Part shown: piece after piece, positions 12,479 through 63,645 of the stretch
Layout: every line of letters starts with the position of its first letter
Numbering within the stretch: position 1 is the first letter of the stretch
Virus record (IMG/VR): IMGVR_UViG_3300009103_000004
Location: 1 to 64,000 of that record
DNA from: a virus
DNA: 64,000 nucleotides
Direction: 5' to 3' (one strand)
Notes under the pieces: generated by a model
Told to the model about the DNA's origin: nothing
Database searches by the model: none
The model's input: only the letters and a program-made list of their open reading frames with translations
Translations under genes and position numbers: made by a program

Positions 12479-13561
12479 TTAGCTAGTACCGAAGAGGGTC
12501 TGGTACATCTCATCGTTTTTTCCGGCGGGCCCTCTTCGGTTTACTCTTTTTCTTTCTTCTTCTTTTTCTAAGATATCCAACTTCTCCCGATACTTCTTAA
12601 ACTCGTCGTCTGTCCTGGACCAAGCTTCCGTGGCTCTAGCAGTTGTTGCTCCTATAGGCATCCCTATAACTCCACCTAATCGTCCGACAGGCCCTCCTGC
12701 TAGCCCGCCAACAAGAGCACCACTATAGCTACCGTACGATCCACCGAATATTTGGTTTAAGTAATCTATTTTCTTTTTGTCAGCTACGGTGAGTTTTTCC
12801 TTTTTGTTAATTGCCTGTAACGCTTTGTTCATAGCATTACGATTTGCCCTGTACTCAAGATACATTGTCGTTCCCGGAACAGGCAGTAATCCTAACGTGG
12901 CTTGTTCGAGAAGAGGTAACAGAGCACGGCCACCAGGAGTTCCGTCTTCGGTGAAATCTTGTGCATGCCCCAACTCATGTCTCAAAACTCCAGGATCTGC
13001 AGATTCAACATTTACTGTGTCAGAAAATGGGTTGTAATGGTTTGGTCTGTTAAACCCCGCCATCCCGGCAGCTGCTTGCAATGGGTAAACTAAGCCCCCA
13101 AATAGTTTAGAGGGCCAGCCAGTTTTCTTATTTTTAAAAATATTTATAAATTCAGTTAATGGCCTAACACCCCCTAGCGACACATTAGTCTCTGCTAATG
13201 ACGGGTCATCCTTTAATTCTTCTATAATCTCCTTGATCTGCTTGTGCTGCTCTTGACTAGGCCCATGAATAAACTCCCTAGCATTAGTCCAAGGTGTCAT
13301 ATTATACGGTGACCCAGCGAGACTTAGAGCATAGTTTAATGGCTGTATCCTTCCCATTATCTCAAACGGCTTTGAAACTGAATCTGCAAGCTCGCCAACT
13401 GCCCCTCGTGACGTAGAACCCCCAGGGCCCTCACTCCATGTCGGCTCATACACACGCATGGGCCCAAAGTCTTCGGAGTCTATGTAAGGTAAACGCCTGA
13501 GTCCCTTTTTACGCTTCTTAGCAGCACTTGAACGTTTAGCTATGCCTGCTAGTCCGTTCAT
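12479..13561 (-). CDS. Virion-module protein with HExxH metalloprotease domain
   Basis: 360 residues from ATG 13559-13561, sharing a base with the upstream stop (TGATG). The zincin motif H195-E-L-G-H199 lies in GVLRHELGHAQDF, with a candidate third ligand E236 in YLEYRANRNA, a usual spacing for gluzincins. The N terminus is very basic (IAKRSSAAKKRKKGLRRL). A Gly-rich hydrophobic stretch (GALVGGLAGGPVGRLGGVIG) near residues 280-300 follows the protease domain. It may be an ejected protein that cleaves envelope peptides or other virion proteins. The metal-binding residues are seen; the substrate is unknown. Confidence 0.6.
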   Translation of the reverse strand: MNGLAGIAKRSSAAKKRKKGLRRLPYIDSEDFGPMRVYEPTWSEGPGGSTSRGAVGELADSVSKPFEIMGRIQPLNYALSLAGSPYNMTPWTNAREFIHGPSQEQHKQIKEIIEELKDDPSLAETNVSLGGVRPLTEFINIFKNKKTGWPSKLFGGLVYPLQAAAGMAGFNRPNHYNPFSDTVNVESADPGVLRHELGHAQDFTEDGTPGGRALLPLLEQATLGLLPVPGTTMYLEYRANRNAMNKALQAINKKEKLTVADKKKIDYLNQIFGGSYGSYSGALVGGLAGGPVGRLGGVIGMPIGATTARATEAWSRTDDEFKKYREKLDILEKEEERKRVNRRGPAGKNDEMYQTLFGTS

Positions 13562-15399
13562 CACAATAATCCTGTCTTTTCTGAATCTTCACCGAACCCG
13601 TGTCCAATTGCTAGCCTTGGTGCAAAGTGTACGTTCCTATCTACGTTTGTCTCTGCTCCGGAATTTGCAGACTGACTAAGCCTATGTGCTTGATAGCTGG
13701 AGTGTAAGGAAGCCAGCCAGTCCTTCTCATTTAAAGTTGCAGTTCTAAGCCTGACCATCTCTGGCTCAAAATTTAGTTTGTCGTCACTTGCTATCACTTT
13801 GTTAATACCCATATCAGCAATGTTGTTTGCCATGTTGGGAGTTATCTTGGTGCCAAGAGAGTAGTGTAGAGCCGGTGCGTGTAAGTACTTACCCACAGCG
13901 CTCTGCGTATCTCTTAACACAGCACTCTTGGGCGGGACATATGAAGAAACCAAAGAATTATAGGATGCCAAGTCTTCGGGCAGGTAACCACCTATGTCAT
14001 CATCCCCAGTTACACGAACATGATCCAATGCCCCTTTTGCTAAAAATTCTAAATTCTTTTTACTAGCGTATAGTCCACTATTATCAAAGACTTCCTTTAA
14101 ATAGTTTACGTAATGCTGTCTTCCTGAGCCCAAACCTCGTAAAGCTATAACGTCCTTTACGTCAAGTATACCCTCACTAAGTCTGTCTCCCGGTTCTACT
14201 GTCTGACCACGTTTTACATTTATCTCAAATCCAGGAAGAATATAATGATCCTGCCCATCTATTGTTACATTGTTCCCACCTTGCGGAGCCTTGCTTATTT
14301 TTTCCACGCGACCACCAACCTCAGCTAGTGTAGCCTTATTCGGGTATGTAGAAGGGCTTTGCATTATTTGATTAACCACCTTGAACCCGCTAGTAGGAAC
14401 TTTACTTCCACTAAACTGCCCACCCCCATGTTTAACATTTAGAGCACCTTGCGTTAGTGGCTCGCTCAAAGCGTGTGCAGCAGTTATACCTACAGCTTCT
14501 CCAAGTTTAGGGAACTTGCCGTCATTATTTAAACCCGAGCACTTAACGCATACACCGCTGGCAGACTCACAAGTTAACGGGCTTCTTGCCAGCACTCTTT
14601 CTTTTTTTAACTTGGTTAGTGCTTTATATACACTTTTATCTACAGCTTCCCCAGCAGCTACAGGGCCATACTTTCGTTGTAATACCCTGCCTGATAATTC
14701 TTCCACATCAGAAACATCAAGAGGTATGCCATTAGTTGTACCGCAGTCATCCTCAGTAGTTATCAACCTTGTAACGGACTGTACCATTTGCTTAGCTAAA
14801 TCACCAGCGTCTGCGGTAGCTTCTTTAGTAGATATAACAGCTTTTCTGGCGCCGAACGTACTTGATAGGTATTCTGCTGGCCTCAAGCCCTCGCCATAGC
14901 TGTTCTCTATAAACAAATCTATAATATTATCTTTGTAGTCTGTGTAAACTCCGGGAGTTGTGATCATGGATTTGAGCTGCCCTTTGTTTCCTCTTGCTCC
15001 AGAGACTACGGAGTTACCGAGATTGTGCTCAGTACCCTTGATTGACTCCATTGTCATCTTTTCTAGTATGTCAGAATACTTTGCGTATACAGCAGCTCTC
15101 GCACTTCTCTTGTCTTTTGCCTTGGATTCAGCCTTTTTTACGTCTTGCTTCATCTTAGCTATGACAGCGTCCTTGTCGAACGTCGGGTACATATCTGCCA
15201 GAGTTATGGTCTCTGCCTGGTTGTACGAAGCTTCCCTACCCAAGTCAGAAATCTCTTTAGATAACTTCCTATACTTCTCGGGGTGCTTGCTGGCAATTTC
15301 GGACATTATATAACTTATACCCTTACTGTTATATTCGACACCCTCCAAATCTATATCTTCGGGCACAATATCTCGCATTATTAAATCGACTGCCTTCAT
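13561..15399 (-). CDS. RNA polymerase beta-prime subunit, C-terminal part
   Basis: 612 residues matching the bridge-helix to trigger-loop half of bacterial beta-prime. Visible hallmarks are GARGNKGQLKSM and the GLRPAEYLSSTFGARKA block; TEDDCGT (C219); LTCESASGVCVKC (C277, C284, C287), which with C219 reproduces the four-Cys zinc site; and the trigger-loop block GEAVGITAAHALSEPLTQ. The catalytic NADFDGD half is encoded separately at 20808-24482, so beta-prime is split between those regions, similar in position to the cyanobacterial rpoC1/rpoC2 split. A variant of the recurrent motif, GREASY, lies near residue 55. With the other polymerase pieces in this window it should form a phage transcriptase. 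It overlaps the downstream protease-like gene. Confidence 0.9.
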   Translation of the reverse strand: MKAVDLIMRDIVPEDIDLEGVEYNSKGISYIMSEIASKHPEKYRKLSKEISDLGREASYNQAETITLADMYPTFDKDAVIAKMKQDVKKAESKAKDKRSARAAVYAKYSDILEKMTMESIKGTEHNLGNSVVSGARGNKGQLKSMITTPGVYTDYKDNIIDLFIENSYGEGLRPAEYLSSTFGARKAVISTKEATADAGDLAKQMVQSVTRLITTEDDCGTTNGIPLDVSDVEELSGRVLQRKYGPVAAGEAVDKSVYKALTKLKKERVLARSPLTCESASGVCVKCSGLNNDGKFPKLGEAVGITAAHALSEPLTQGALNVKHGGGQFSGSKVPTSGFKVVNQIMQSPSTYPNKATLAEVGGRVEKISKAPQGGNNVTIDGQDHYILPGFEINVKRGQTVEPGDRLSEGILDVKDVIALRGLGSGRQHYVNYLKEVFDNSGLYASKKNLEFLAKGALDHVRVTGDDDIGGYLPEDLASYNSLVSSYVPPKSAVLRDTQSAVGKYLHAPALHYSLGTKITPNMANNIADMGINKVIASDDKLNFEPEMVRLRTATLNEKDWLASLHSSYQAHRLSQSANSGAETNVDRNVHFAPRLAIGHGFGEDSEKTGLL

Positions 15400-20807: not shown

Positions 20808-23800
20808 TTATACAATGTTTACTTCGTCATTCAAATTTATATGTCCTGCACGTATAGCTTTTAACGCATCCGCTTTACTCCTAAAAGTAAAGGGCGTGCC
20901 ACCTTTGGATTTCTGCGAAGAATATAACCCCAGTATAAATTCATGTTTTGGTTTAGGCACAATATCATTTCTCTTCTTAATTGAGAATAACATTTTAGAT
21001 GGTAAAAGTTTGTTCTTAGCATCGTCCACCGCTTCGGGTAATGCAGGTAACTGTATATTCATAGCATCCCCATCAAAGTCTGCATTGTGACCTGTAGTTA
21101 CTAACGGGGATATCATAATAGTATTACCCTCAATTAGCTTAGGGTAACCAGCAGTAATATTATATTTATGCCAAGCTGGAGACCGTGAGTATATGACTGG
21201 TCGATCCTTAGATTCTAACTTCATAGCATGCTCTGCATGAGGGGCCCTGTCCCTAATAGCTATAACAGCATCTGCAGCACTTCTTCCAGACCTAACCAAC
21301 CTGCGCTGAATGTAAGGAGCGTATAGCTTCCACGCCATCTCCTTTGGTATCCCTATTTCATCTAGGTCAAGTTCTGGGTCTACGCCAATAACTCCTCTGC
21401 CAGAAGAGTCTACTGGTTTAGATATCAACCTACGTTGAAAAAAACTAAACTTAGCTTGGTTACCAACTAGTTTTTTTAGAAACCCCGAAACTCCTCTGGA
21501 TTTAGTCTTTGGTTGTACGGGGTCGCCAAACCCGTAAACGGCTTTGACTGCGTCATAAACATTTAATCTGCTGTCACCTACAGCTTCATCTCCCAACTCG
21601 TCTCTCAAGTCACGATACGAATCCCTTACCTCGAACAAATCTTTGTACAGTTCGTTAGCATCTCCTGGGACAAAAGAATCACCTATGATGTTAAACGGCC
21701 TAAACTTAGGAGGAATAACAGGAACTCTTGTTATCAAATAATCCGAAGGTGCTATATTATTTTTGCGCATCCCATGGGCGTAACGCATAAGTTTAATAGA
21801 TGGGCCGCGAGCAGATTTCTTTTTGCTGTCCAAGCCCTCCTTAGACATTTTCTCAACATCATTTACAGAGAAGGTTCTTAGTGCAGCGGCTAGTGAATCA
21901 GGCCCAGTATGCTTCATCTGGGAAACATCTGCAGTGCTGGCTGCTTTATCAATATACTCTGGTGGTATGCCACCACTGGGGGTTATAATTTGAGCGTGTG
22001 GCACATTGCTCGCATAACGAGCACCATCCGGTTCATCGTAATGCTTCCATAATTCTTCAGGAGTTTTTGAAATATACTTTCTAACATCCTCAATACCTAT
22101 ATCCTTGTGTCTCTCATCACCTTGATGCTCAGGACCCTCAGGGTCATAAGGAACTAACTCAGACCCAACTATACGTGTGCCCGGGTGATCCTTTAGTAAT
22201 TTACTTAAGTTTATTCTGATCAATTCAGATTTAAGTTTTTTAATTGGATGCGCATCAGTTATCTTACTAGAATCGGGATCTCCGAATAGTACGCTTGGTC
22301 CCTGCAGCGATGTTCCCCAAAACTCATCCTTAAGTTCCTCACTCACTCTAGCTTTAAAATCTTCTTCCGATTCTTCCCAATCTGTCCCAGCCCTGTTGGC
22401 TAGCACTGCCTTTAGCACCTCTTTGTTATCCAGCAAAGACTTGGAAGACAACAGGCCATGCTTATTTACTAAATCCGTAGATCCTCCTGGAATTGCACTT
22501 GTGACATATACGTCGGCCTCAGTGCTGGATTTCTTAACAAACTTAGCTATCCTATCAATTAAGCTCTGTGGAAGCTCTTCCTTACCAGATAATATATTTC
22601 TATACTGCTTTTCGGTAAGCCCCAGTATTTTTCTTACCGGCTCCTCGAATGCTGGGTTTGGAACTTCAAATGGTAATCTCACAAAGCCATACTTGTTTGT
22701 GTTTGATAAGGAGTCATCAAACAAACCACCTTTAACCGGTACTACAGCGCCCTTGGACAACTGACGCATCTCAAGCAAACCAGGGTTGTTTACCTCTACA
22801 GGGTCTAGTTCCGTAAGAACTTTCTCGGTCATTGGTCCGAGTCTCATGTCGCCCTTTTTATTTATCTGCCTAGCGTGATACCCAGATCCCTGAAGCAAAG
22901 TTTTAAATTTATTATATACCAGCGGAGTATCAGGCATCTTTGGATCGTACCCGCTCCTTAGCTGTTGCCAGTAGTCATCGTTCTTTGCTCCACGCAATAA
23001 TGACATGTCTTTCAACATGCCGTAAGCGCCAGATGATAACAGCCCATGGGTTTCAAGCCCACTTAACCGCTTGCTCTGAGCTAATTCATCCCCGCCCTTA
23101 AGTGGTTGCTCGTTAATATCATACGCTCCTTGGTTTCTAGCTGAGAACCCCTTAGTAGCAGTGTGGTGAAGCTTTAGAACGTAAGCGTCACCAACAGTTG
23201 CAGGCTTTTGTAATTTCTTATCACTTTGCGGGTCAAAGATTTCCTCCACATCAGAAATCCCATGCTTATCCAACTCACCCTTAACATAACTAAACCACTT
23301 GTTTCCCGGCTGTGTAAAAGCATTTAACTTGTAAGGCTTTCCCGTAGCTTTTGCAGCTTTACCCAACAGTAACTCGTAAATCATAGAGTTATTAACACGT
23401 GACGGTATCCCAAGAGGGTTAAGTAAAAGCTCAAGCGGCTTACCATTAACAGTTCTGGGCATATGGTCGTTTGGTATTATTTTACTTATCGTTCCCTTTT
23501 GACCTGATCTAAAAACAACCTTGTCACCAGGCATGGCTGGCTCATCAGAGCGTACTGTAACCTTAACCCCACTCCGAGTTCTTACAACATCTGTAACCAC
23601 CCCGGGAGTTTCGTGCTCCCAAACTAAAGAGGCATCATTCCTGGCATTCTTCATATACGATGAGAGCTTACCAAGTTTTTGTGATGAGGAAGAAACTACA
23701 CGAGGCTTACTAGCAAGTGCAACTGGATCACCAGGTTCCAGAGTTTGGCCCGGAAGAACCACACCGTTATCATCTAATTTATCTAACTGTGATATAACAA

Positions 23801-24482
23801 ATTTCTTTGGGAAAAGACTTACGTAGTGGTTCTTACCACCCTTTACACCACGCTTATATTCCAAATCGTCAGCATACATATGCTCGCTGGTAAGACGTTT
23901 TGCAAAATCTTCAGATACCACAATAGCGTCTTCCATTGAGTGACCCTTGTAAGGTAAGAGTCCAACTCTAGCATTGAGGCCAAGCGCCAGCGTTCCCCTA
24001 TCGTCTGTGTAGTTTGATTTGGCTAATAAATCTCCAGACTTAACAACGTCACCCTTTCTTACTATAGGAGTGTTGTGTAGGCTGGTTTTTCTATTGAAGG
24101 GAAAGTTATGATAGAGTGGCTTCTTGATAAGCTCGCCATCTTCAGACTTTATAGTTATGCTCTTTTTGTTAACATTTTGAACCACACCGTTCTTGTCTGA
24201 GAACATAGCGCCTGCATTACGCCCAAGCGTTTCGTCAAAGCTTTCTCCGTTATCGCTAAGCTCGTTTATATTTTGAATGAGTGGAGCTTCAGGATTTGAA
24301 AGAGGCAAAGCCTGATTAAAATACTTAGACCCGTAAAAGAGTCTAGAGCCATGAACTGAAGATTGAAGTGGTATTAGATTTAGATGACTACCGAAGAATT
24401 GGTTTGTGGACGGCAGCTCATAATCTACTTCCTTATTATCAACCTTAGTTATAACATCATTCTTAATTGCATGTCTCATCAT
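20808..24482 (-). CDS. RNA polymerase beta C-terminal / beta-prime N-terminal fusion subunit
   Basis: 1224 residues. The first 380 match beta downstream of the rifampicin region: KEVDYELP, NLIPLQSS, ALPLSNPEAPLI, YKGHSMEDAIVVSEDF (178-193), and GDKVVFRSGQKGTISKI with both catalytic-region lysines (K321, K329), then LLLNPLGIPSRVN. From about residue 880 it is beta-prime: NIAPSDYLITRVPVIPPKFRPF, PVDSSGRGVIGV, and the magnesium-binding NADFDGD at 1133-1139. It ends before the bridge helix, which is encoded at 13561-15399. Between the two halves is YIDKAASTAD (K846-S849), a copy of the candidate protease motif. Natural beta/beta-prime fusions exist, but this one lacks the ends of both subunits. 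The start overlaps the upstream gene by ATGA. Confidence 0.92.
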   Translation of the reverse strand: MMRHAIKNDVITKVDNKEVDYELPSTNQFFGSHLNLIPLQSSVHGSRLFYGSKYFNQALPLSNPEAPLIQNINELSDNGESFDETLGRNAGAMFSDKNGVVQNVNKKSITIKSEDGELIKKPLYHNFPFNRKTSLHNTPIVRKGDVVKSGDLLAKSNYTDDRGTLALGLNARVGLLPYKGHSMEDAIVVSEDFAKRLTSEHMYADDLEYKRGVKGGKNHYVSLFPKKFVISQLDKLDDNGVVLPGQTLEPGDPVALASKPRVVSSSSQKLGKLSSYMKNARNDASLVWEHETPGVVTDVVRTRSGVKVTVRSDEPAMPGDKVVFRSGQKGTISKIIPNDHMPRTVNGKPLELLLNPLGIPSRVNNSMIYELLLGKAAKATGKPYKLNAFTQPGNKWFSYVKGELDKHGISDVEEIFDPQSDKKLQKPATVGDAYVLKLHHTATKGFSARNQGAYDINEQPLKGGDELAQSKRLSGLETHGLLSSGAYGMLKDMSLLRGAKNDDYWQQLRSGYDPKMPDTPLVYNKFKTLLQGSGYHARQINKKGDMRLGPMTEKVLTELDPVEVNNPGLLEMRQLSKGAVVPVKGGLFDDSLSNTNKYGFVRLPFEVPNPAFEEPVRKILGLTEKQYRNILSGKEELPQSLIDRIAKFVKKSSTEADVYVTSAIPGGSTDLVNKHGLLSSKSLLDNKEVLKAVLANRAGTDWEESEEDFKARVSEELKDEFWGTSLQGPSVLFGDPDSSKITDAHPIKKLKSELIRINLSKLLKDHPGTRIVGSELVPYDPEGPEHQGDERHKDIGIEDVRKYISKTPEELWKHYDEPDGARYASNVPHAQIITPSGGIPPEYIDKAASTADVSQMKHTGPDSLAAALRTFSVNDVEKMSKEGLDSKKKSARGPSIKLMRYAHGMRKNNIAPSDYLITRVPVIPPKFRPFNIIGDSFVPGDANELYKDLFEVRDSYRDLRDELGDEAVGDSRLNVYDAVKAVYGFGDPVQPKTKSRGVSGFLKKLVGNQAKFSFFQRRLISKPVDSSGRGVIGVDPELDLDEIGIPKEMAWKLYAPYIQRRLVRSGRSAADAVIAIRDRAPHAEHAMKLESKDRPVIYSRSPAWHKYNITAGYPKLIEGNTIMISPLVTTGHNADFDGDAMNIQLPALPEAVDDAKNKLLPSKMLFSIKKRNDIVPKPKHEFILGLYSSQKSKGGTPFTFRSKADALKAIRAGHINLNDEVNIV

Positions 24483-55331: not shown

Positions 55332-55370
55332 ACAAGGTTGCACTTTACCCGAAAGCTGGGGCAACCTTGT
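55332..55370 (-). other. Long hairpin directly after the methyltransferase stop
   Basis: Ten-pair outer stem ACAAGGTTGC/GCAACCTTGT with an inner CTTT/AAAG pairing and a short loop. It begins at the stop codon of 55370-55939 and lacks a T run, so it is not a canonical terminator; with the terminator 40 bases on it could form a stable 3' end or a protein-binding site. Confidence 0.55.
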
Positions 55371-55939
55371 TATAGATTAAATACCATAACAGAATCTCTA
55401 AACCAACTACAATTTGTGCTAGATTTTTGTAGAGTTTCAGATAATTCATTGTCGTGGGTTAGGCCATACTCGTCCATAACGTCTATAACGTAATCTTGAT
55501 TTTGTTCATTAACATGACCACATCCTCTTTGCCCAATTTTAGCCCAACTAATTATTAGTAAATTGCTGCAATGCCTTAATAAGTTTTCAATATATATTTT
55601 TTCATATTCTTTAGGAATGTGTTCAGCAACTTCTAATGAACAGACCACATCGTACTTTTTATTAAGATCAAATGTTTTAGATAAATCTAAAACCTTACCA
55701 AATCCATCAGTCACTAATTCAACTTCTGGATTGCCGTCGTATGCTTCAACTGCAATTAATGGATTATTCTCTTTTATGTACTTTGCATACTTTGCATCAC
55801 CACATCCAAAGTCTACATATGTATTATAGTTAGAAACTATAGTATTAAGAGTTTTTGAGAAAGATTCATCGTAATGATGATTAATACACGCTCCTTCCCA
55901 GAATCCTCTAGAATTTATTTTTTGTCTATATCGTTTCAC
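55370..55939 (-). CDS. Class I SAM-dependent methyltransferase
   Basis: 189 residues from a GTG start. The SAM-binding motif I is YVDFGCGDAKYA (41-52), an acidic motif II follows strand two (IAVEAYDGNP), and YDVVCSLEVAEHIPKEY (96-112) is the motif IV region typical of small-molecule and sugar methyltransferases. It is the last gene of the glycan island. Methylation of a sugar or of a polyprenyl or phospho-alcohol group on the glycan is a likely role, inferred from context. Confidence 0.75.
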   Translation of the reverse strand: MKRYRQKINSRGFWEGACINHHYDESFSKTLNTIVSNYNTYVDFGCGDAKYAKYIKENNPLIAVEAYDGNPEVELVTDGFGKVLDLSKTFDLNKKYDVVCSLEVAEHIPKEYEKIYIENLLRHCSNLLIISWAKIGQRGCGHVNEQNQDYVIDVMDEYGLTHDNELSETLQKSSTNCSWFRDSVMVFNL

Positions 55940-55940
55940 T

Positions 55941-56528
55941 TTAAAAGGGGCTTTTCAAGTGCCTCTTGTAGGGAGTAATGTAATTATCTCCGTACTGATC
56001 GGCCAGTACCTTTACCGTGTCCTTCTTGCTTGGCGCATACGTATCAACACCATACAGTTTGATTTTACGCAACTTATTGTAATCTATTTTGTAATCCATC
56101 CAGAAATCCGACTCTATGATATTAAGTACCAGGTCGCAATGTATGTTCATTTGGGGGAAAGATTTAGGACTGCCGGCAGTGTCAAACGTTAACAGCCATG
56201 CCTGTATTCCATTTATCTTCTGCTTGTCCATGTCGTGAAATCTTTTGTCGAAGGACAAATTGTATTTCGGGTTCTCTATATTGTTATCGTCGCTACAATA
56301 TATTTCCCATTGTGTAAGGTCGTCCACACAAAACCTGAGATCTATGTCATCATCGTGATAGATTGGCTTGCCACGCTCGTACTCTATCAAGTTACCATGC
56401 GAAATTACATATCGCACACCGACATCATCTAACAAAGCGGACATACCCTCCATCAACTGTCTTTTGTAAGACAATACGTATTTGTAAGTCTCCTCGGTTA
56501 CTACGACTTTGTTATGTTTGTATTTCAT
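55941..56528 (-). CDS. LicD-like phosphotransferase, copy 1
   Basis: 195 residues. It has the LicD (PF04991-type) layout: YVISHGNLIEYERGKPIYHD (40-59) and the metal-binding HDDDIDLRF (58-66), then ALKDG-like loops. Members move phosphocholine or another phospho-alcohol from its CDP derivative to sugars. The Gly of the usual 'GTLLGavR' block is replaced by HGNLIEYER, a divergent form. Two further LicD-like genes lie nearby, and a CDP-alcohol-forming enzyme at 58284, which supports a phospho-alcohol decoration pathway. Confidence 0.65.
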   Translation of the reverse strand: MKYKHNKVVVTEETYKYVLSYKRQLMEGMSALLDDVGVRYVISHGNLIEYERGKPIYHDDDIDLRFCVDDLTQWEIYCSDDNNIENPKYNLSFDKRFHDMDKQKINGIQAWLLTFDTAGSPKSFPQMNIHCDLVLNIIESDFWMDYKIDYNKLRKIKLYGVDTYAPSKKDTVKVLADQYGDNYITPYKRHLKSPF

Positions 56529-56533
56529 TTTTA

Positions 56534-57334
56534 TTAGAAAAGTTCTTCACAATATATCCCACTGTTAATACCTTCCCATCTATGCCCATCAACGTTAAAA
56601 TCTTTTAAATCCTCTATTGGGATAGTAAGCCTTGAATCTCCCTCATCATACATCTCCGCAAATGCATCACGCTTTAACTTATGGTTGAATTGAATTTTAC
56701 ATGATTTAAAAACATCCTCACCATACTGACGTTTTAATAAATCTACGGAACAGTTTGGCACAGGGACAGTAAGTCCTTCGTAATCGGCCTTTAGAAGTGG
56801 GAATATATTGTCCACTGGATCCGAAAAAGATTTAATGTGGCCGGAGACCATTTGACGTTTGGGAATTGTCAGCATGCCATCTTTAATATCATAAGTATAA
56901 AAATCGATGAATGGGTAAGCCCTACCCCTGACATAAGTCTTAAATGGAACTCCCCAATCTTTTTTCCATAGAGTCAAGTCCCCTGGCCACAATCCATCTT
57001 CGGTATGTTTGTTTTCCTTTGTCTGCCCGGGAACATATTTTTCTGACCCGTGAATTATCCATTTAGTATATCCCTTTTCTATGTCCTTTGGTGAAGGAAC
57101 ATGTTTCTTTAAATTAGACGTTAATTTGGGTATGTCGTCAGCACTTATGACAATATCAATATCATCATCCCAAGGCATTCGTCTACCATGTCGCAAAGCT
57201 CCTATAAGTGTGCCAAAGGCCAGAAAAAATTTAATATCCTGACTGACTAGAAAGTTAAATGTTTGCTCAAATAAATAAACCAACCTAGCCTCCTGCTCTC
57301 GGCTGAGGTCCATTTCTTTAGATATGCTGTTCAT
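56534..57334 (-). CDS. LicD-like phosphotransferase, copy 2
   Basis: 266 residues, the most canonical of the three: FFLAFGTLIGALRHGRRMPW (37-56) and WDDDIDIVI (55-63) correspond to 'aGTLLGavRh.gfIpWDDDiDv'. Further blocks VPFKTYVRGRAYPFIDFYTY and PIEDLKDFNVDG fit the fold of LicD/fukutin-type enzymes. A CDP-linked alcohol phosphate donor is likely. It has an alternative start at the second Met. Together with copies 1 and 3 it may add phospho-alcohols to different positions. Confidence 0.8.
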   Translation of the reverse strand: MNSISKEMDLSREQEARLVYLFEQTFNFLVSQDIKFFLAFGTLIGALRHGRRMPWDDDIDIVISADDIPKLTSNLKKHVPSPKDIEKGYTKWIIHGSEKYVPGQTKENKHTEDGLWPGDLTLWKKDWGVPFKTYVRGRAYPFIDFYTYDIKDGMLTIPKRQMVSGHIKSFSDPVDNIFPLLKADYEGLTVPVPNCSVDLLKRQYGEDVFKSCKIQFNHKLKRDAFAEMYDEGDSRLTIPIEDLKDFNVDGHRWEGINSGIYCEELF

Positions 57335-57352
57335 GAATAGACTAGTTTAGAT

Positions 57353-58261
57353 TTATGCAATTCTTTCCATGAAGGGGCACGCATCCATGATATCTTCGTA
57401 ATTAAAATTAATGGGCCTATCATCAAAGTTAAAATGTTTTTCCAGATTAGACGCGTCAAGAGCACCAGGGACATTTTTGATTTTATACATATGCCGGTCA
57501 CGGATCTTATCTACTGACATAAAATAATCCAGATATTTAAATCGCCCAGAGGCAGAGCAAGAGGCCCCGGTAACTTTTGGTGTCCAAAGCCATGCATTAG
57601 GAATATTAAATGCATCGGATATGATCAACCCATGCAGGGCTGAAGATACGATCTTCTCGCATGACAGTATATCTATAAGAGTTTTCTCAACATCCGTTGT
57701 TTTAAGGTCAATTAACTTTACATTATCTCCCGGTACAGCATCTTTCCAGGCCCAGTCATTACACCGTATAATTACTCCTATCTTATGTGTTTTTGGTATA
57801 TCTTCCCGGGTTTTATCAAATAAGTAAGGTACTAAAAGCGCTGGGTCTCCATATACTTCTGGGCAGTGGCCGCCGGCAGATGCTATTAAGCTCCGTGTTA
57901 ACGGTCCACGTACTGAATGATATTTAGCTTGTTCTGAATGATGTCCGGCACCTAGGGTCTTCATCTTTCTAAACGGCTCGGTACTATTTGCACCAGTTCC
58001 CCATACTATACTTGTCGGCCTGACATACAGTAGCATAGATCCTATAGCTATATAGTGCGGTTGTTTAATCAATTTAGTACATGTAGACGGGGGCTCAACA
58101 ACACTCCTGGCATTTATACCTGTCAATTTATGTATTAACCATGGTGATATAGCATCTCCCCAATTGTCGATCCGCCTCCACCACGTAAGTGGGACTTCAC
58201 CATCCCTTAAGATAATATCTTTTCTAGGCCTGTATTTAGAAGTAATTTCATTAACACCCAT
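57353..58261 (-). CDS. Polysaccharide pyruvyl transferase-like protein
   Basis: 302 residues. It has the signature order of PF04230 (WcaK/CsaB type): NWGDAISPWLIHKLTGI near the start, HYIAIGSML, VWGTGANS, YHSVRGPLTRSLI, EVYGDPALLVPY, then SSALHGLIISDAFNIPNAWL near residue 215. These enzymes add a pyruvate ketal from phosphoenolpyruvate to a sugar of a cell-surface or capsular glycan. In a phage this would alter a surface or virion glycan. It lies between LicD-like and cytidylyltransferase genes in one operon. Confidence 0.75.
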   Translation of the reverse strand: MGVNEITSKYRPRKDIILRDGEVPLTWWRRIDNWGDAISPWLIHKLTGINARSVVEPPSTCTKLIKQPHYIAIGSMLLYVRPTSIVWGTGANSTEPFRKMKTLGAGHHSEQAKYHSVRGPLTRSLIASAGGHCPEVYGDPALLVPYLFDKTREDIPKTHKIGVIIRCNDWAWKDAVPGDNVKLIDLKTTDVEKTLIDILSCEKIVSSALHGLIISDAFNIPNAWLWTPKVTGASCSASGRFKYLDYFMSVDKIRDRHMYKIKNVPGALDASNLEKHFNFDDRPINFNYEDIMDACPFMERIA

Positions 58262-58283
58262 ACTGTCATCTCCTCTATTTAAT

Positions 58284-58760
58284 CTATCTAACTATCTTCT
58301 CAATTAACATTGTTGTAGATATCGAAGGTGTCCGGGGCAGGTACACTACTTCACATATATCCTTAAACTCGTCGAACTTACCCTTCCAGTCATCCCCCAT
58401 AACAAGGACATGCGCCTCATATTCTTTTATATATTCCCTTTTCTGCTCCATTGATTCCTCAAGAAATACTTTATCAACTACGCTTAAGGCCCCGACAATA
58501 GCCATCCTATCCTCTTGATTAACCACAGGATATTTCTTTTTTTTATCATAGTTCATCTTATCACTAGACACTCCAACTATTAGAGTAGGCTCTGGTCCAA
58601 ACCAACCTAGTTTTCTAATTTTTGGATTTTCAGTTTCCTTGTATGGGTATACCATAACTCGGCCAGCTTCATTCGCCCCATTAAGAATATTCAAATGCCC
58701 TATGTGAAATAGATCGAATGTGCCGAATGTGATTACATTACTAGTGGTCCTCTCTGTCAT
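58284..58760 (-). CDS. CDP-alcohol (glycerol-3-phosphate or related) cytidylyltransferase, TagD type
   Basis: 158 residues from ATG 58758-58760, just after the end of the LicD-like gene; the longer frame would overlap that gene. It carries the nucleotidyltransferase motif GTFDLFHIGHLNIL (13-26) with H19-x-G-H22, the KPYPV-like VVNQEDRMAIVGAL, and the C-terminal RTPSISTT (143-150) that corresponds to the RTEGISTT signature of glycerol-3-phosphate and related cytidylyltransferases. It makes a CDP-linked alcohol, the donor type used by LicD enzymes, of which three are encoded beside it. Confidence 0.8.
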   Translation of the reverse strand: MTERTTSNVITFGTFDLFHIGHLNILNGANEAGRVMVYPYKETENPKIRKLGWFGPEPTLIVGVSSDKMNYDKKKKYPVVNQEDRMAIVGALSVVDKVFLEESMEQKREYIKEYEAHVLVMGDDWKGKFDEFKDICEVVYLPRTPSISTTMLIEKIVR

Positions 58761-58770
58761 GCCTTTGTTG

Positions 58771-59328
58771 TTACATATTACATTCGAAAATCTTATAATT
58801 CGTATCCCAATATTTTGAGTACTCACTTTCGACTAATCCCCTATTCCTATGAAATGTGGTATCGGCATGTGAGCCAGAAGGAACTTTCCAATTACCATAT
58901 AGTTGATCTAGATATAGCTCGCTTTCAATTGGTATTGTGTAAATTTCTTCATTCATTTTGACCTCCTCTAATTTCGGGAATGCTGGATTTGCGTAAACGT
59001 CACAATATAATTCAGCCCATTTAGTTTTAATACTAATCATGTTACCCCATTTTTTTTTAGGATAATGCTCATGCGCTTTAATTTTTATTAAGTCATATTT
59101 TTCAAAATTAATTTTCTTCAATTTGCCCCACTGAGATAGGTGAGTAGTTATATCGACGTCAGTATCACTTATTATTAAATCTTTATCTCTCACACAACCT
59201 ATCAGTGTACCACAATCCAAATAATATTTTATACCCTTAGCATTTAATATATGTACAACCTTTTTTAAAAGATAATTCATTAACTCCAATTTATGTCGAG
59301 CTACCTCATTCCAATATGCAAAATCCAT
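58771..59328 (-). CDS. LicD-like phosphotransferase, copy 3
   Basis: 185 residues. YYLDCGTLIGCVRDKDLIIS (35-54) and SDTDVDITT (54-62) form the LicD nucleotidyl/metal site; the second part has GNMISIKTKWAELYCDVYAN. The WDDD block is replaced by SDTD, which keeps two acidic residues. It overlaps neither neighbour and is followed by the cytidylyltransferase after 10 bases, so the donor enzyme and a transferase are made together. Confidence 0.65.
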   Translation of the reverse strand: MDFAYWNEVARHKLELMNYLLKKVVHILNAKGIKYYLDCGTLIGCVRDKDLIISDTDVDITTHLSQWGKLKKINFEKYDLIKIKAHEHYPKKKWGNMISIKTKWAELYCDVYANPAFPKLEEVKMNEEIYTIPIESELYLDQLYGNWKVPSGSHADTTFHRNRGLVESEYSKYWDTNYKIFECNM

Positions 59329-59341
59329 TGAACATTATCAT

Positions 59342-61105
59342 TTATTGTTTATTTTTTTGGCTAACCAAATAATCAAAACACCCTTGATATTTGTAAGCGT
59401 TAACGCCATCCGGGCGTATCCATTTCTTTTCCTTGAACTCTGGGAGGCCGCTAGCTTTGAAAATAGCATCCTCTCCAAAACCATATGTAAACTGCGTTAC
59501 TAATTTAAGATTATAAAACTCATTATTTAACACCTCTGTGCCAATACCCTGTTCAGACAAAAGAAAGGAGTGCACCATATCATCAGAAAACCTACAAGTA
59601 CTGCATTCGTTAGATACGGAAACCATTTTATTTATTGTATCCTCGTGTATGTCCGAAACCTTGTATGCTACACCTGAAAACCCTTCAGAAACAACTTTGT
59701 TCTCATGCGGCCAGTCTTTATCGTCAATGTCCCAAAAGGACAAGGTTGGCGCAGAAGCAGTAACCACCTTGTTATTGAGTTTAGACATTGCTAGGGCCAT
59801 TTCATTAACCATCCCAAACGGGTAAGCAGTGTCGTCATCGATTGTAATTAAAATAGCACTAGGGTCATGTTCCTTTAGGTACCTCAATGCGGGAATCAGT
59901 TTATTTATGGGTCCTAGATCATGCTCACCCCTAATAAGAGTTACCTTCTCATTAGAAGTTAAATCTTTGGGTATAATATAATCTTCCTCATCTCTGTACT
60001 TATCGGGCAACGATAATAGTATGGCATTAACAAACTCTAAATCCAATGTGTTTAAGGGGTAGTAGATTTTATCAAGCCTGGAAGGAGAAGAAGTCAACGA
60101 CACGTAAACGTTATGTTCTGAAAGATACGCAGAAAGCTCATCAGATACCACTCTTCGTTTTTGTTTAAGGCAAGCCTGTACGATACCGCGAAATTTATAA
60201 ATTGATTTATCACAAACATCACCGCCTGGGTATGGGAAATTAACAGTTGTAAGTTCACCGAACGAGGGGGTGACGCGGCCTTGCCAATTTTGCTCTATCT
60301 CTCCAAGGTGTACTACACGTACGCTTTTTAACGTAGTTTTCTTTTTAAACTTACCACTAAATAGTAGGTCTGAGTGTGAGGCATCACGATGGTGCTCGGG
60401 GTATGGCTGGTTGCCTATTTTACTACTCTTGAAGTTTAAAGAATTAAAAAGTTGAAAGTAACCTATAGGCATTCCGCGCGGGCTGTATGCTTTGGGTAGA
60501 GCTGTAAAGTCGCGTCCAGAAGACTTGTAGCTATCAAACTCCTCAGGCGTTTCCGCGAAATGACGTATTGCTCCGTATAAAGTCGTAGTATTCAAACTAC
60601 GAGTGTCCATGTAACGCTTGAAATATGGTGGAAACACAATATCTGCATCAAATATCAAAACCCAATTAGATTTATTAGTACCGATTTTCGAAAGACCCAA
60701 ATTAATACCTGCGCCCTTGTCAAAGAAAGAACCACCCCGGTAAAACACGTCAGTCTTTATCAACTCTACGAAATCATATTTTCGGCAAAGCTCCTCAGTA
60801 GCTTTATCGTTAGTGTCTGTTACTACATATAACTTTGTAAACACACCGACTGCAGACTCCAAACTATACTTAAAATAATCAGCATAGTTAACACAACAAA
60901 CAACTCCATACAACTTAGCAACAGGAACGGATGTATCTGGTACCCAAAGACCAGAACCAGAATCAGATGTCTTAGCAGCCTTAACCTCAAGCATAGGGTC
61001 TAAATCCTGACCGCCGCCGCGTCTGGGGTTGTCACCAATATAATTAATACTTTTCTTTATAGGAACGTTCCTCTTCTTTACATTTAAGTTAAAATTTATA
61101 TCCAT
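59342..61105 (-). CDS. Two-domain glycosyltransferase
   Basis: 587 residues from ATG 61103-61105 (TGATG overlap with the upstream stop). Domain one: LYGVVCCVNYADYFKYSLES, then VLIFDADIVFPP with D153-A-D155, a GT-A fold using DxD. Domain two: NVYVSLTSSPSRLDKIYYPL, EKVTLIRGEHDLGPINKL, and ILITIDDDTAYP with the acidic triad at 423-425, again a GT-A-type enzyme. Each domain should transfer one sugar, so the protein may add two residues in order. A copy of the K-x-A pattern near residue 41 (LEVKAAK) is the only one in this island. Confidence 0.7.
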   Translation of the reverse strand: MDINFNLNVKKRNVPIKKSINYIGDNPRRGGGQDLDPMLEVKAAKTSDSGSGLWVPDTSVPVAKLYGVVCCVNYADYFKYSLESAVGVFTKLYVVTDTNDKATEELCRKYDFVELIKTDVFYRGGSFFDKGAGINLGLSKIGTNKSNWVLIFDADIVFPPYFKRYMDTRSLNTTTLYGAIRHFAETPEEFDSYKSSGRDFTALPKAYSPRGMPIGYFQLFNSLNFKSSKIGNQPYPEHHRDASHSDLLFSGKFKKKTTLKSVRVVHLGEIEQNWQGRVTPSFGELTTVNFPYPGGDVCDKSIYKFRGIVQACLKQKRRVVSDELSAYLSEHNVYVSLTSSPSRLDKIYYPLNTLDLEFVNAILLSLPDKYRDEEDYIIPKDLTSNEKVTLIRGEHDLGPINKLIPALRYLKEHDPSAILITIDDDTAYPFGMVNEMALAMSKLNNKVVTASAPTLSFWDIDDKDWPHENKVVSEGFSGVAYKVSDIHEDTINKMVSVSNECSTCRFSDDMVHSFLLSEQGIGTEVLNNEFYNLKLVTQFTYGFGEDAIFKASGLPEFKEKKWIRPDGVNAYKYQGCFDYLVSQKNKQ

Positions 61106-61935
61106 CACTCATCACAGTTTACAGCTATTGTGTCAGCAGACCACTTCGCGTAAAGATAAAAATTAGAATTATTAGAACCAACTACGTACGGGCACAATGA
61201 CATTATAATAGCATTCATTAATTCAGAACGTATAGGGTCTGTGTCGTGTTCTCTGAAGGTGAGTCTGTCACTGTACCTGTTTACAATATACTCAGCGTAT
61301 AAACTGTTACTCCCTATGGCAAATAACCTTATATTTATTTTCTTACAAACAAAAGAATCTACCGCATCTATAAAACTAGATAAGTTGCTTTCGTTAATGC
61401 AATTAAGATCTACGCCAATAACCGTACTGTCCTTAAATTTGTCTCGAAAATAACCCCGGGCTGCTTTGCTCTGAAACCACCTCGGGACTACCTTGTCCGC
61501 ACAGGCATTCCATAAAAAAGACCCTCGTGCCAAATCATCCGTAAAATACTCGTGCTCAAAAAAAGAATCATATGTAAATAGGCTGTAATTACCAACAGCG
61601 GAAGGGCCCCGCAACAAAGCGTCCCGATCTATGTTTTGTGGAGCAGCATTATCACGTATGACTTCAGGTATGTCTGAAAGAGAGTAAGCATACTGCTCTT
61701 TTATCTTTAGCTTAAAACAATCGTGAAAAACATTACTACCGTCCGTAGATACCTTTGAATCTGACCAATCGACAAAAATATTATACCCGCGCCAATGCCT
61801 GAGTGAAACCAAAACATCCACAACGGTAAGAACCCTGTTTATTACAGAAGAAGTCTCTGACCCGCGAATAACAATATATTTGTTAAACGCCTGAGGTATA
61901 AGACGCTCGGCAACGTAGTGTTTGTTATCAGTCAT
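61105..61935 (-). CDS. Glycosyltransferase-like protein (fucosyltransferase-like fold suspected)
   Basis: 276 residues from ATG 61933-61935, overlapping the upstream gene by 8 bases; an earlier TTG is less likely. The first part (NKYIVIRGSETSSVINRVLT, VLVSLRHWRGYNIFVDW) resembles the Rossmann unit of NodZ/O-fucosyltransferase-type GT-B enzymes, and the end (IIMSLCPYVVGSNNSNFYLY) resembles the 'c..liGt.sSnf' block that binds the donor nucleotide. No DxD is present, as expected for that type. The call rests on these two blocks and on the operon, and remains tentative. Confidence 0.45.
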   Translation of the reverse strand: MTDNKHYVAERLIPQAFNKYIVIRGSETSSVINRVLTVVDVLVSLRHWRGYNIFVDWSDSKVSTDGSNVFHDCFKLKIKEQYAYSLSDIPEVIRDNAAPQNIDRDALLRGPSAVGNYSLFTYDSFFEHEYFTDDLARGSFLWNACADKVVPRWFQSKAARGYFRDKFKDSTVIGVDLNCINESNLSSFIDAVDSFVCKKINIRLFAIGSNSLYAEYIVNRYSDRLTFREHDTDPIRSELMNAIIMSLCPYVVGSNNSNFYLYAKWSADTIAVNCDE

Positions 61936-62797
61936 CTTCTTTCCTGGAAGCAAAGTAATCTCTTATATCCGAATGCATAGTGCCTTTGTCTGAATCCCAA
62001 GTTAAAACACCGGACTCGTCAGAACCAAGATCAGTAGCAGGGTCAAACTGCGCCTTAAGCAAAACCTCGTGTCTATCAAGATAATTTCTATTCTTGAGAT
62101 TACCATGAAAGAAAGTATCGATCTTGTTTTCAGCGTAACCTATGTCGCCAGCAACCTTCGAATACCACTCATTTGACCAAGCTATAATGTCGTATATATG
62201 CTGCAAGGAATATGATCTCTTGCTAAACCAATCACGCAATTCGTTAAAAGCAGCAGCATATATAAGAGTATCGCCACCACCCACAACTAGGTTAGTGTAT
62301 AGCCCAAACCCGTCTGCAAATAAAGAAGAGGGGCAAGCCCACCCAAAACCCGTGGCAGGCGAGCATTGACCCATAGACGCCACAGTACTCTTCATTACCT
62401 TAAAGGCATCATCATCATCGTAACGTTTTATAACTTCAAATACCTGAACCAGAGTGCTCTCTAACAAAGCTTCTATAATCTTATCGTACCAACCATCATT
62501 TATAAAAATTATATCAGCATCAAGCCACGAGACATACTCGTACCCGCGAGATAAAACATCCCTTATGCCAATGTTAAGCAAAGCTTCCTTCTGCCACATC
62601 AAATGCTGTGTCCTAAACGACAAACGGTTTGGGAGTTCATCTAGATGAAAATCAGCGTCATCAAAAGCCAGCTCAACAGTAGTGAGTTGTTCAGCGTAGT
62701 CGCCAAGGCCTTCGTAAAACCTAAAGTAGTTATCCCTACGTCGTGAGTATCCGCACGGATTAAAGTAACAAGCAGTTAAGCCTAAATCAAAACTCAT
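61928..62797 (-). CDS. GT-A glycosyltransferase
   Basis: 289 residues. The N-terminal strand and loop (LTACYFNPCGYSRRRDNYFR), a helix that receives the donor base, and YVSWLDADIIFIND with D93-A-D95 mark a GT-A enzyme. The block ATGFGWACPSSLFADG and the GGGDTLIYAAAF segment occupy the usual acceptor and catalytic regions. It overlaps the sialyltransferase-like gene by 4 bases, so both are made together. The linkage formed is unknown. Confidence 0.7.
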   Translation of the reverse strand: MSFDLGLTACYFNPCGYSRRRDNYFRFYEGLGDYAEQLTTVELAFDDADFHLDELPNRLSFRTQHLMWQKEALLNIGIRDVLSRGYEYVSWLDADIIFINDGWYDKIIEALLESTLVQVFEVIKRYDDDDAFKVMKSTVASMGQCSPATGFGWACPSSLFADGFGLYTNLVVGGGDTLIYAAAFNELRDWFSKRSYSLQHIYDIIAWSNEWYSKVAGDIGYAENKIDTFFHGNLKNRNYLDRHEVLLKAQFDPATDLGSDESGVLTWDSDKGTMHSDIRDYFASRKEDD

Positions 62798-63645
62798 GAC
62801 ACTATATCAAAATTATGTAAGGACTTGGCGCAATGTATAAATTCAGCAGCCTCAAACTCTGGATCATGAGAAGAATGTAAACGCTCAGACCCATGGTAGT
62901 GACGCCTGGATTTTCCAAGATCAAAACCGTAAAGCGTTACTCCCCCGAAGACCCTGATGCCAAACGCAGCTGCAGCATACCCTATAGATGGCTTCTTGGT
63001 AGAATGTAAAGAGCTAAGACATGCACGAAAAGAAGGCTTAAGCACTAACATAGCTGAAGGGTCTCCGCCAGAATCTAAGTAACGAGCATACTCTAGTAAA
63101 GCTGCAGTTTCATTAGTCGTGCCTATAGCTATGTTTAAAACACCGAGTAGCTGGAAATCATCTCTGGTTATATCGCGCGTGTAGTCATAAATCCTACGTT
63201 CATTAAATAAATGTATGGTAGTCTTAGTGCCTATATCTTCAGAATGCTCTGTTATAAAAGGATGATTAAGCCTACACACCACTTTGTTGGAATCTATATG
63301 CTTACCGTACTTTGAGTTAAGCAAACAACTACCCCCACCGACTATGGTTATATGACCACCATAGATAGAAAAATTAGATATATCGGAAAGACTGGGAAGT
63401 TTATCAGAAAAAACCGAACATATGTATGGAGCTGAATTGGGATCAGGCCAATCTTCTTCTAGCCAGTGCGTAGGCATATTCTCGCGAAGTAAGTCGCTAC
63501 TATTGTCTGATATAACGCCACGCTCGAAATCAGTGAAAGCTTCTTTATACAGAACAACTGACGATAGGTCAGATGTTACTGGGATATGACTTAGTCTCTC
63601 AAGCGTTGGGAATTCAGGTATGTTAACTAGTAAGTCCTCATTCAT
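62794..63645 (-). CDS. GT29-like sialyltransferase
   Basis: 283 residues. Residues 100-145 match sialylmotif L of the GT29 family: TIVGGGSCLLNSKYGKHIDS (donor-binding Gly-rich loop) continuing as NKVVCRLNHP and EDIGTKTTIHLF. Residues 219-243 match motif S (PSIGYAAAAFGIRVFGGVTL then YGFDLG), and HYHGS at 249-253 plus H260-x4-E fits the short catalytic motifs III and VS. The family transfers sialic acid from CMP-sialic acid. The next gene encodes a CMP-sialic acid synthetase. GT29 is mainly known from animals, plants and some bacteria and phages. No signal peptide or membrane anchor is present, so it acts in the cytoplasm. Confidence 0.75.
   Translation of the reverse strand: MNEDLLVNIPEFPTLERLSHIPVTSDLSSVVLYKEAFTDFERGVISDNSSDLLRENMPTHWLEEDWPDPNSAPYICSVFSDKLPSLSDISNFSIYGGHITIVGGGSCLLNSKYGKHIDSNKVVCRLNHPFITEHSEDIGTKTTIHLFNERRIYDYTRDITRDDFQLLGVLNIAIGTTNETAALLEYARYLDSGGDPSAMLVLKPSFRACLSSLHSTKKPSIGYAAAAFGIRVFGGVTLYGFDLGKSRRHYHGSERLHSSHDPEFEAAEFIHCAKSLHNFDIVS

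Follow-up and report, generated by a model that had tools for sequence, protein, structure and literature searches.

In the capsule system of Actinobacillus pleuropneumoniae, the CTP:glycerol-3-phosphate cytidylyltransferase (GCT) Cps7B supplies cytidine diphosphate (CDP)-glycerol to Cps7C, a LicD-family (PF04991) glycerol-3-phosphate polymerase; this supply has been proven biochemically (PMC11666461). Cps7C has aspartates like those of FKRP, and its activity depends crucially on two of them (PMC11666461). Human FKRP and FKTN share the LicD/nucleotidyltransferase fold and likewise use a CDP-polyol donor, transferring to a protein-bound glycan (PMC6965139, PMC4873967). In FKRP, Asp360/362/364 and Asp416 build the Mg sites and are required for activity (PMC6965139), and the donor of both enzymes is CDP-ribitol made by ISPD (PMC4873967). 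Here we describe a set of genes of this kind in a virus. The DNA analyzed (the window) comprises positions 1 to 64,000 of the linear 167,189-bp IMG/VR virus record IMGVR_UViG_3300009103_000004, which we identify as a phage because its proteins match the phage DNA polymerase, portal, UvsX-like recombinase, SbcC and RNA polymerase beta subunit families of PHROGs. A first-pass annotation had placed a CDP-alcohol synthase beside three LicD-type transferases that use CDP-alcohols. All four open reading frames (ORFs) are present on the minus strand, and the pairing holds: the synthase (58284 to 58760) is of the TagD type, and the metal sites of the transferases (LicD 55941, LicD 56534 and LicD 58771, named by their first positions) are intact. 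We consider it probable that the phage encodes a self-sufficient module for decorating glycans with glycerol-phosphate.

By analogy, Cps7B/Cps7C is the closest proven case for this module. In A. pleuropneumoniae, however, the enzyme makes a capsule linker on poly(Kdo), carries a tetratricopeptide repeat (TPR) domain and has PF04464 partners, whereas the phage has three small LicDs, no PF04464 match and a different predicted acceptor. The human system, in turn, differs in its IspD-type synthase and in being a Golgi enzyme with a stem domain. Among phages, LicD together with IspD has been reported in the gut-infecting Flandersviridae (PMC8008677). There, a phage LicD also lies beside a cytidylyltransferase-family gene, but the partner is IspD and not TagD, there is one LicD, and the pair sits in the replication module; in the available part of that report, the two are not linked as transferase and donor synthase (PMC8008677). 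Since ISPD is the source of CDP-ribitol for FKTN/FKRP (PMC4873967), the Flandersviridae IspD might likewise supply LicD as a polyol-phosphate cytidylyltransferase and not be an isoprenoid enzyme.

The 158-amino-acid protein encoded at 58284 to 58760 (CYTIDYLYLTRANSFERASE) had TIGR01518 (glycerol-3-phosphate cytidylyltransferase) as its top curated family, at 106.7 bits, with the next family at 57.8. A phmmer search of the PDB returned Bacillus subtilis TagD (1coz; 101 bits) and Staphylococcus aureus TarD (85 bits), with phosphoethanolamine and phosphocholine cytidylyltransferases (ECT and CCT) at 43 and 26 bits. The AlphaFold2 (AF2) model (pLDDT 88) also had 1coz as its best Foldseek match (TMt 0.94; rmsd 1.5). 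The TagD/GCT motif set (HxGH, K44/K46, GDDWxGKFD and RTxxISTT) is complete, in the form of GTFDLFHIGH (residue 13), KKKK (73), GDDWKGKFD (122) and RTPSISTT (143). In TagD numbering, with equivalences read off the alignment, H14, H17, K44, K46, R55, D66, D94, R113, T114, S118 and T119 are kept. The phage GCT thus resembles the TagD/TarD enzymes of wall teichoic acid synthesis in sequence, fold and catalytic motifs; it differs from them in an insert of ~25 amino acids past the first helix (roughly residues 35 to 58, where model confidence is low) and in that their TagB/TagF (PF04464) partner is unmatched in the record. Homology to NAD synthesis, which would have undone the first-pass assignment, was not what we found: no NMNAT family was listed and FAD_syn scored below its cutoff (E = 1.4e-4), so that NAD/FAD synthesis was rejected in favor of TagD, the nearest relative by TIGR01518 and, through 1coz, by both sequence and fold. 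The protein is TagD-like and is predicted to work like a GCT, short of certified equivalog status.

Two of the transferases exceed the Pfam cutoff for PF04991 (22.6 bits): LicD 56534 (56534 to 57334; 70.9 bits, E = 2.2e-19), whose sole significant PDB sequence match was FKRP (6kaj; E = 1.7e-5), and LicD 58771 (58771 to 59328; 28.6 bits, E = 1.9e-6), which aligns to the LicD half of a phage LicD-GCT fusion (L048, described below; 28% over 157 columns). The divergent LicD 55941 (55941 to 56528) was recognized over most of its length by a LicD hidden Markov model (HMM) built without it, at an E value of 1.5e-9 (best of 2,000 shuffles, 0.07), which makes a false LicD assignment unlikely. In Foldseek, FKRP was again the top PDB match (6.8e-6) for an AF2 model of this protein, although the mean pLDDT of that model was only 68. 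The WDDD, HDDD and SDTD metal sites first noticed in these genes read as such, in PWDDDIDI (56534), YHDDDIDL (55941) and ISDTDVDI (58771). A loss of metal-site residues would have spoken against LicD activity; instead, D-x-D-x-D is present in all three proteins, as is a later Asp whose setting is comparable to that in FKRP (the distal Asp lies in PFIDFYT for 56534, NIHCDLVL for 55941 and ELYCDVY for 58771). LicD 56534 and LicD 55941 also have the motifs LLKRQYG and VLADQYG, respectively.

The three LicDs are only ~17 to 26% alike in pairwise comparison, and they may divide the labor among them; the first-pass annotation took their divergence to suggest three acceptors or donors. One form of this is that one or two use CDP-glycerol while another takes a different CDP donor from the host, such as CDP-ribitol or CDP-choline, or no longer catalyzes phosphotransfer. 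LicD 55941, the most divergent and set apart from the GCT gene, would be the most likely candidate. We regard such a split of donors as possible but doubtful: each LicD has the full set of metal ligands, the GCT is the single CDP-alcohol synthase among the genes scanned, and the genes are separated by no more than 22 bp, so that one operon is likely.

Which CDP-alcohol is made was judged partly from a tree of 72 GCTs. There the phage protein fell within a strongly supported (100/100) group of 30 rows, of which 28 are cellular (marine Gammaproteobacteria, Marinifilaceae, some Actinomycetota and others). Among 25 genomes of such relatives, with contigs matched by coordinates rather than by name, 14 have a PF04464 CDP-glycerol glycerophosphotransferase gene no more than 200 bp from GCT, and 20 have one no more than 3.5 kb away. 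The 167-kb record itself gave no match to choline kinase (PF01633), to the BCCT transporter (PF02028) or to the PF04464 glycerophosphotransferase of the TagB/TagF route. Glycerol-3-phosphate is a general host metabolite, and one enzyme would therefore suffice for CDP-glycerol. Taken together, the product of the GCT is most likely CDP-glycerol, with glycerol-3-phosphate as the alcohol.

The lic locus (LicA-LicB-LicC-LicD) offers another template, since there, too, LicD is fed by a dedicated cytidylyltransferase. On that template the phage would make CDP-choline or CDP-ethanolamine, and its LicDs would transfer phosphocholine as in the Haemophilus and pneumococcus lic loci. LicD is named after phosphocholine transfer, the Mf1 cholinephosphotransferase is the nearest NCBIfam model for two of the LicDs, and two Vibrio phages (below) seem to carry such a route. 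For the present locus we judge this reading very unlikely, because the cytidylyltransferase is of the TagD type by clade and motif (101 bits, versus 26 for CCT and 43 for ECT), its cellular clade is tied to PF04464 CDP-glycerol transferases, and the choline kinase and choline transporter of the lic scheme are unmatched in the record. Phosphocholine was accordingly rejected as cargo of the GCT and LicDs. The first-pass annotation had allowed for phosphocholine- or glycerol-phosphate-like groups; the second half of that proposal survives as the most likely, and the first has become improbable.

Several observations weigh against the glycerol-phosphate module. For the GCT, the 106.7 bits lie below the TIGR01518 equivalog cutoff of 165.4, R63, W74 and E115-G116 of TagD are replaced by S, M and PS, and its insert is absent from the aligned viral relatives; the TIGR01518 match is split in two pieces around this insert, which perhaps accounts for part of the low score. 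As for the transferases, LicD 55941 has no Pfam match and a model of the low confidence given above, the NCBIfam model nearest to two of them is that of a cholinephosphotransferase (Mf1), albeit far below its cutoff, and the donor of a LicD is not readable from its sequence. The record, moreover, is linear and perhaps incomplete, so that unmatched genes could lie beyond it, and transporters or kinases that have diverged strongly would escape family searches.

To determine how widely the pairing occurs, IMG/VR was scanned with this GCT as the seed. The scan gave 45 loci, with a PF04991 match in 13 of the records, and the GCT ORF was recovered in 41. With an HMM built from the loci, LicD adjoined GCT in 18 of these 41, a count that is no general frequency because the survey was seeded from one GCT. 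The closest LicD-GCT gaps were all shorter than 25 bp, and several pairs overlapped by 4 bp. At L048:6653-7570, a single 305-amino-acid ORF contains both LicD and cytidylyltransferase domains, the LicD half scoring just under the Pfam cutoff. At L020:6173-10366, a 1,397-amino-acid protein has several glycosyltransferase domains and a GCT domain at its end, with LicD as the next gene; over 276 columns, the N-terminal part of this protein shares 32% identity with the GT2 protein at 59342 to 61108 of the window. Of 10 proteins probed from the LicD loci, 7 clearly matched terminase, portal, head or tape-measure families, and most of these loci are therefore phage contigs. L011 and L012 are near-duplicates that look cellular, and L035 and L036 are also near-duplicates, which leaves ~15 independent loci. 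Among cellular GCT loci, LicD was found in the flank of 14 of 80, several of the pairs overlapping, and the GCT tree demands several separate changes between phages and cells.

Deposited phages gave a different picture. LicD is rare among them (0 to 3 records per query), and neither LicD 56534 nor the LicD of L020 had a tblastn match there; a search of viral contigs also returned no relatives of LicD 56534. By these searches, the LicD-GCT pairing is rare in deposited phages and recurrent in metagenomic ones. The suggestion that such a route is uncommon in a phage thus stands for deposited genomes but not for the IMG/VR GCT loci. GCT genes of unclear function have been described in a roseophage and a cyanophage (PMC6918029, PMC9146016).

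A three-gene run of another kind was seen in two of the deposited phages that the LicD queries did return, Vibrio phages 150E35-1 (OX241562; L164:5653-8654) and 1.031.O (MG592415; L165:3650-6648). It comprises a cytidylyltransferase-kinase fusion with a weak APH/choline-kinase match, a BCCT transporter (Pfam E = 5.7e-49 in L164) and LicD. This looks like a complete phage-encoded route from choline uptake to phosphocholine transfer, of which we found no description in the open-licence literature.

The recurrence of the pairing also bears on whether the locus is a functionless fragment of a host capsule cluster, carried by the phage as neutral cargo. The GCT does cluster with cellular enzymes and has its unusual insert. 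In addition, a DNA polymerase query returned three relatives of the phage, and no LicD or GCT was present in their fragments, which represent mainly the replication/portal region and do not cover the glycan island in which the locus lies. (A search for relatives through the AAA ATPase of the phage returned none.) We consider decay highly improbable, however, as all the ORFs are intact and tightly packed, the catalytic residues are kept, and the pairing recurs in many phages, sometimes as a fusion.

In the glycerol-phosphate module that we favor, the GCT would join CTP and host sn-glycerol-3-phosphate to give CDP-glycerol and pyrophosphate. The three LicDs, with Mg held by D-x-D-x-D and the distal Asp as in FKRP, would use CDP-glycerol as the donor and move glycerol-phosphate onto sugar hydroxyls or onto a previous glycerol-phosphate, releasing CMP. 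Acceptors would be glycans made by the phage island, which encodes GT2, GT7, GT8 and GT29 glycosyltransferases, nonulosonate synthesis, UDP-galactopyranose formation, and pyruvyl- and sulfotransferases. The record gave no match to a lipid-carrier priming transferase (PF02397) or to a Wzx flippase (PF01943), and a simple hydropathy scan of the island found no ORF with two or more hydrophobic segments. We therefore predict that the glycan is assembled in the cytoplasm and that its internal acceptor is most likely a virion protein.

The same enzymes could instead place glycerol-phosphate on a host polysaccharide, blocking superinfection or hiding receptors. Such a role has been proposed for the phage LicD of Flandersviridae (PMC8008677), and phage glycosyltransferases can alter the serotype of the host (cited in PMC12619734). 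We think a host target rather unlikely here, given that a priming transferase, a Wzx-type flippase and multi-transmembrane island proteins are missing from the matches just described and that the island is broader than a simple receptor edit would call for. In other phages, terminase, portal or tail genes share the contig with the pair; this is consistent with a late or virion role but does not prove it. More tentatively, the island might make a complex sulfated glycan bearing nonulosonate and glycerol-phosphate, an anionic, teichoic acid-like coat on the virion, and phages may more generally gain LicD along with its own CDP-donor synthase, be it TagD-type, IspD-type or kinase-fused.

What is known of phage glycan chemistry comes largely from glucosylated DNA and from glycans on the virions of some mycobacteriophages. 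PMC12619734 cites both. A donor-to-acceptor phosphodiester route that is predicted in a phage, recurs in unrelated phages and is sometimes fused would offer specific enzymes that can be tested as makers of charged glycans on virions or surfaces. A role is also suggested for the orphan GCT genes of cyanophages and roseophages and for the LicD-IspD pair of gut phages.

Nearly all coding in the window is on the minus strand. In the order of transcription, the run around the locus comprises the GT2-type glycosyltransferase (59342 to 61108; PF00535, E = 1.1e-9), LicD 58771 after a 13-bp gap, the GCT, a polysaccharide pyruvyltransferase-like protein (57353 to 58261; PF04230, E = 3.1e-11), LicD 56534, LicD 55941 and, 1 bp further on, an S-adenosylmethionine (SAM) methyltransferase-like protein (55370 to 55939; PF13489, E = 1.4e-7). 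The intergenic gaps in this seven-gene run are 1 to 22 bp, and since none is longer, the run is likely to be one operon. The GT2 protein had no tblastn match in deposited phages.

The run forms one end of a glycan island of ~36 kb, the other end of which lies at ~91 kb of the record. Next to the run on the same strand are a protein with no match in the Pfam scan (61105 to 61953), lying between two glycosyltransferase genes, a possible GT2-like glycosyltransferase (61928 to 62797; PF00535, E = 0.023, weak and below the cutoff) and a GT29 (sialyltransferase-family) protein (62794 to 63645; PF00777, E = 7.6e-18). GT29 and GT7 are families best known from animals; the island's GT29 had no tblastn match among 50,697 deposited phage records. 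Pfam and NCBIfam further identified a PseF/KdsB-like CMP-nonulosonate synthetase (63642 to 64331 of the record), NeuB (65713 to 66591), GT7 (66916 to 67584), a second PS_pyruv_trans protein (68177 to 68995), UDP-galactopyranose mutase (80125 to 81141), and GT8, GT92-like, FkbM methyltransferase and sugar epimerase proteins. At least five sulfotransferases (PF03567) are encoded at 74495 to 90887, five of them exceeding the Pfam cutoff. A sulfotransferase gene also ends the relative L057/G048, and similar proteins occur in the phage GCT-LicD loci L026 and L049. The island also contains a caspase-domain protein (81138 to 81932 of the record, L004:17639-18433; Peptidase_C14, E = 5.9e-31), which NCBIfam places nearest the EACC1-associated type, below the cutoff.

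Shine-Dalgarno-like motifs are scarce, being found upstream of 11 of the 57 minus-strand ORFs in the window, and are possibly a clue to the host; a test for Bacteroidota-type promoters in the phage, also as a host clue, gave a chance-level result. RNA polymerase beta-subunit-like proteins (PHROGs) are encoded at 13561 to 15399 and 20808 to 24482 of the window, which suggests that the phage has a multisubunit RNA polymerase of its own. Finally, about a dozen ORFs (at 105572 to 109891, 131991 to 132425, 137145 to 137501 and 166207 to 166593 of the record) share a near-identical N-terminal peptide, MNNKEKYxLVKxA, which we take to resemble the T4 sequence that directs internal head proteins to the capsid.

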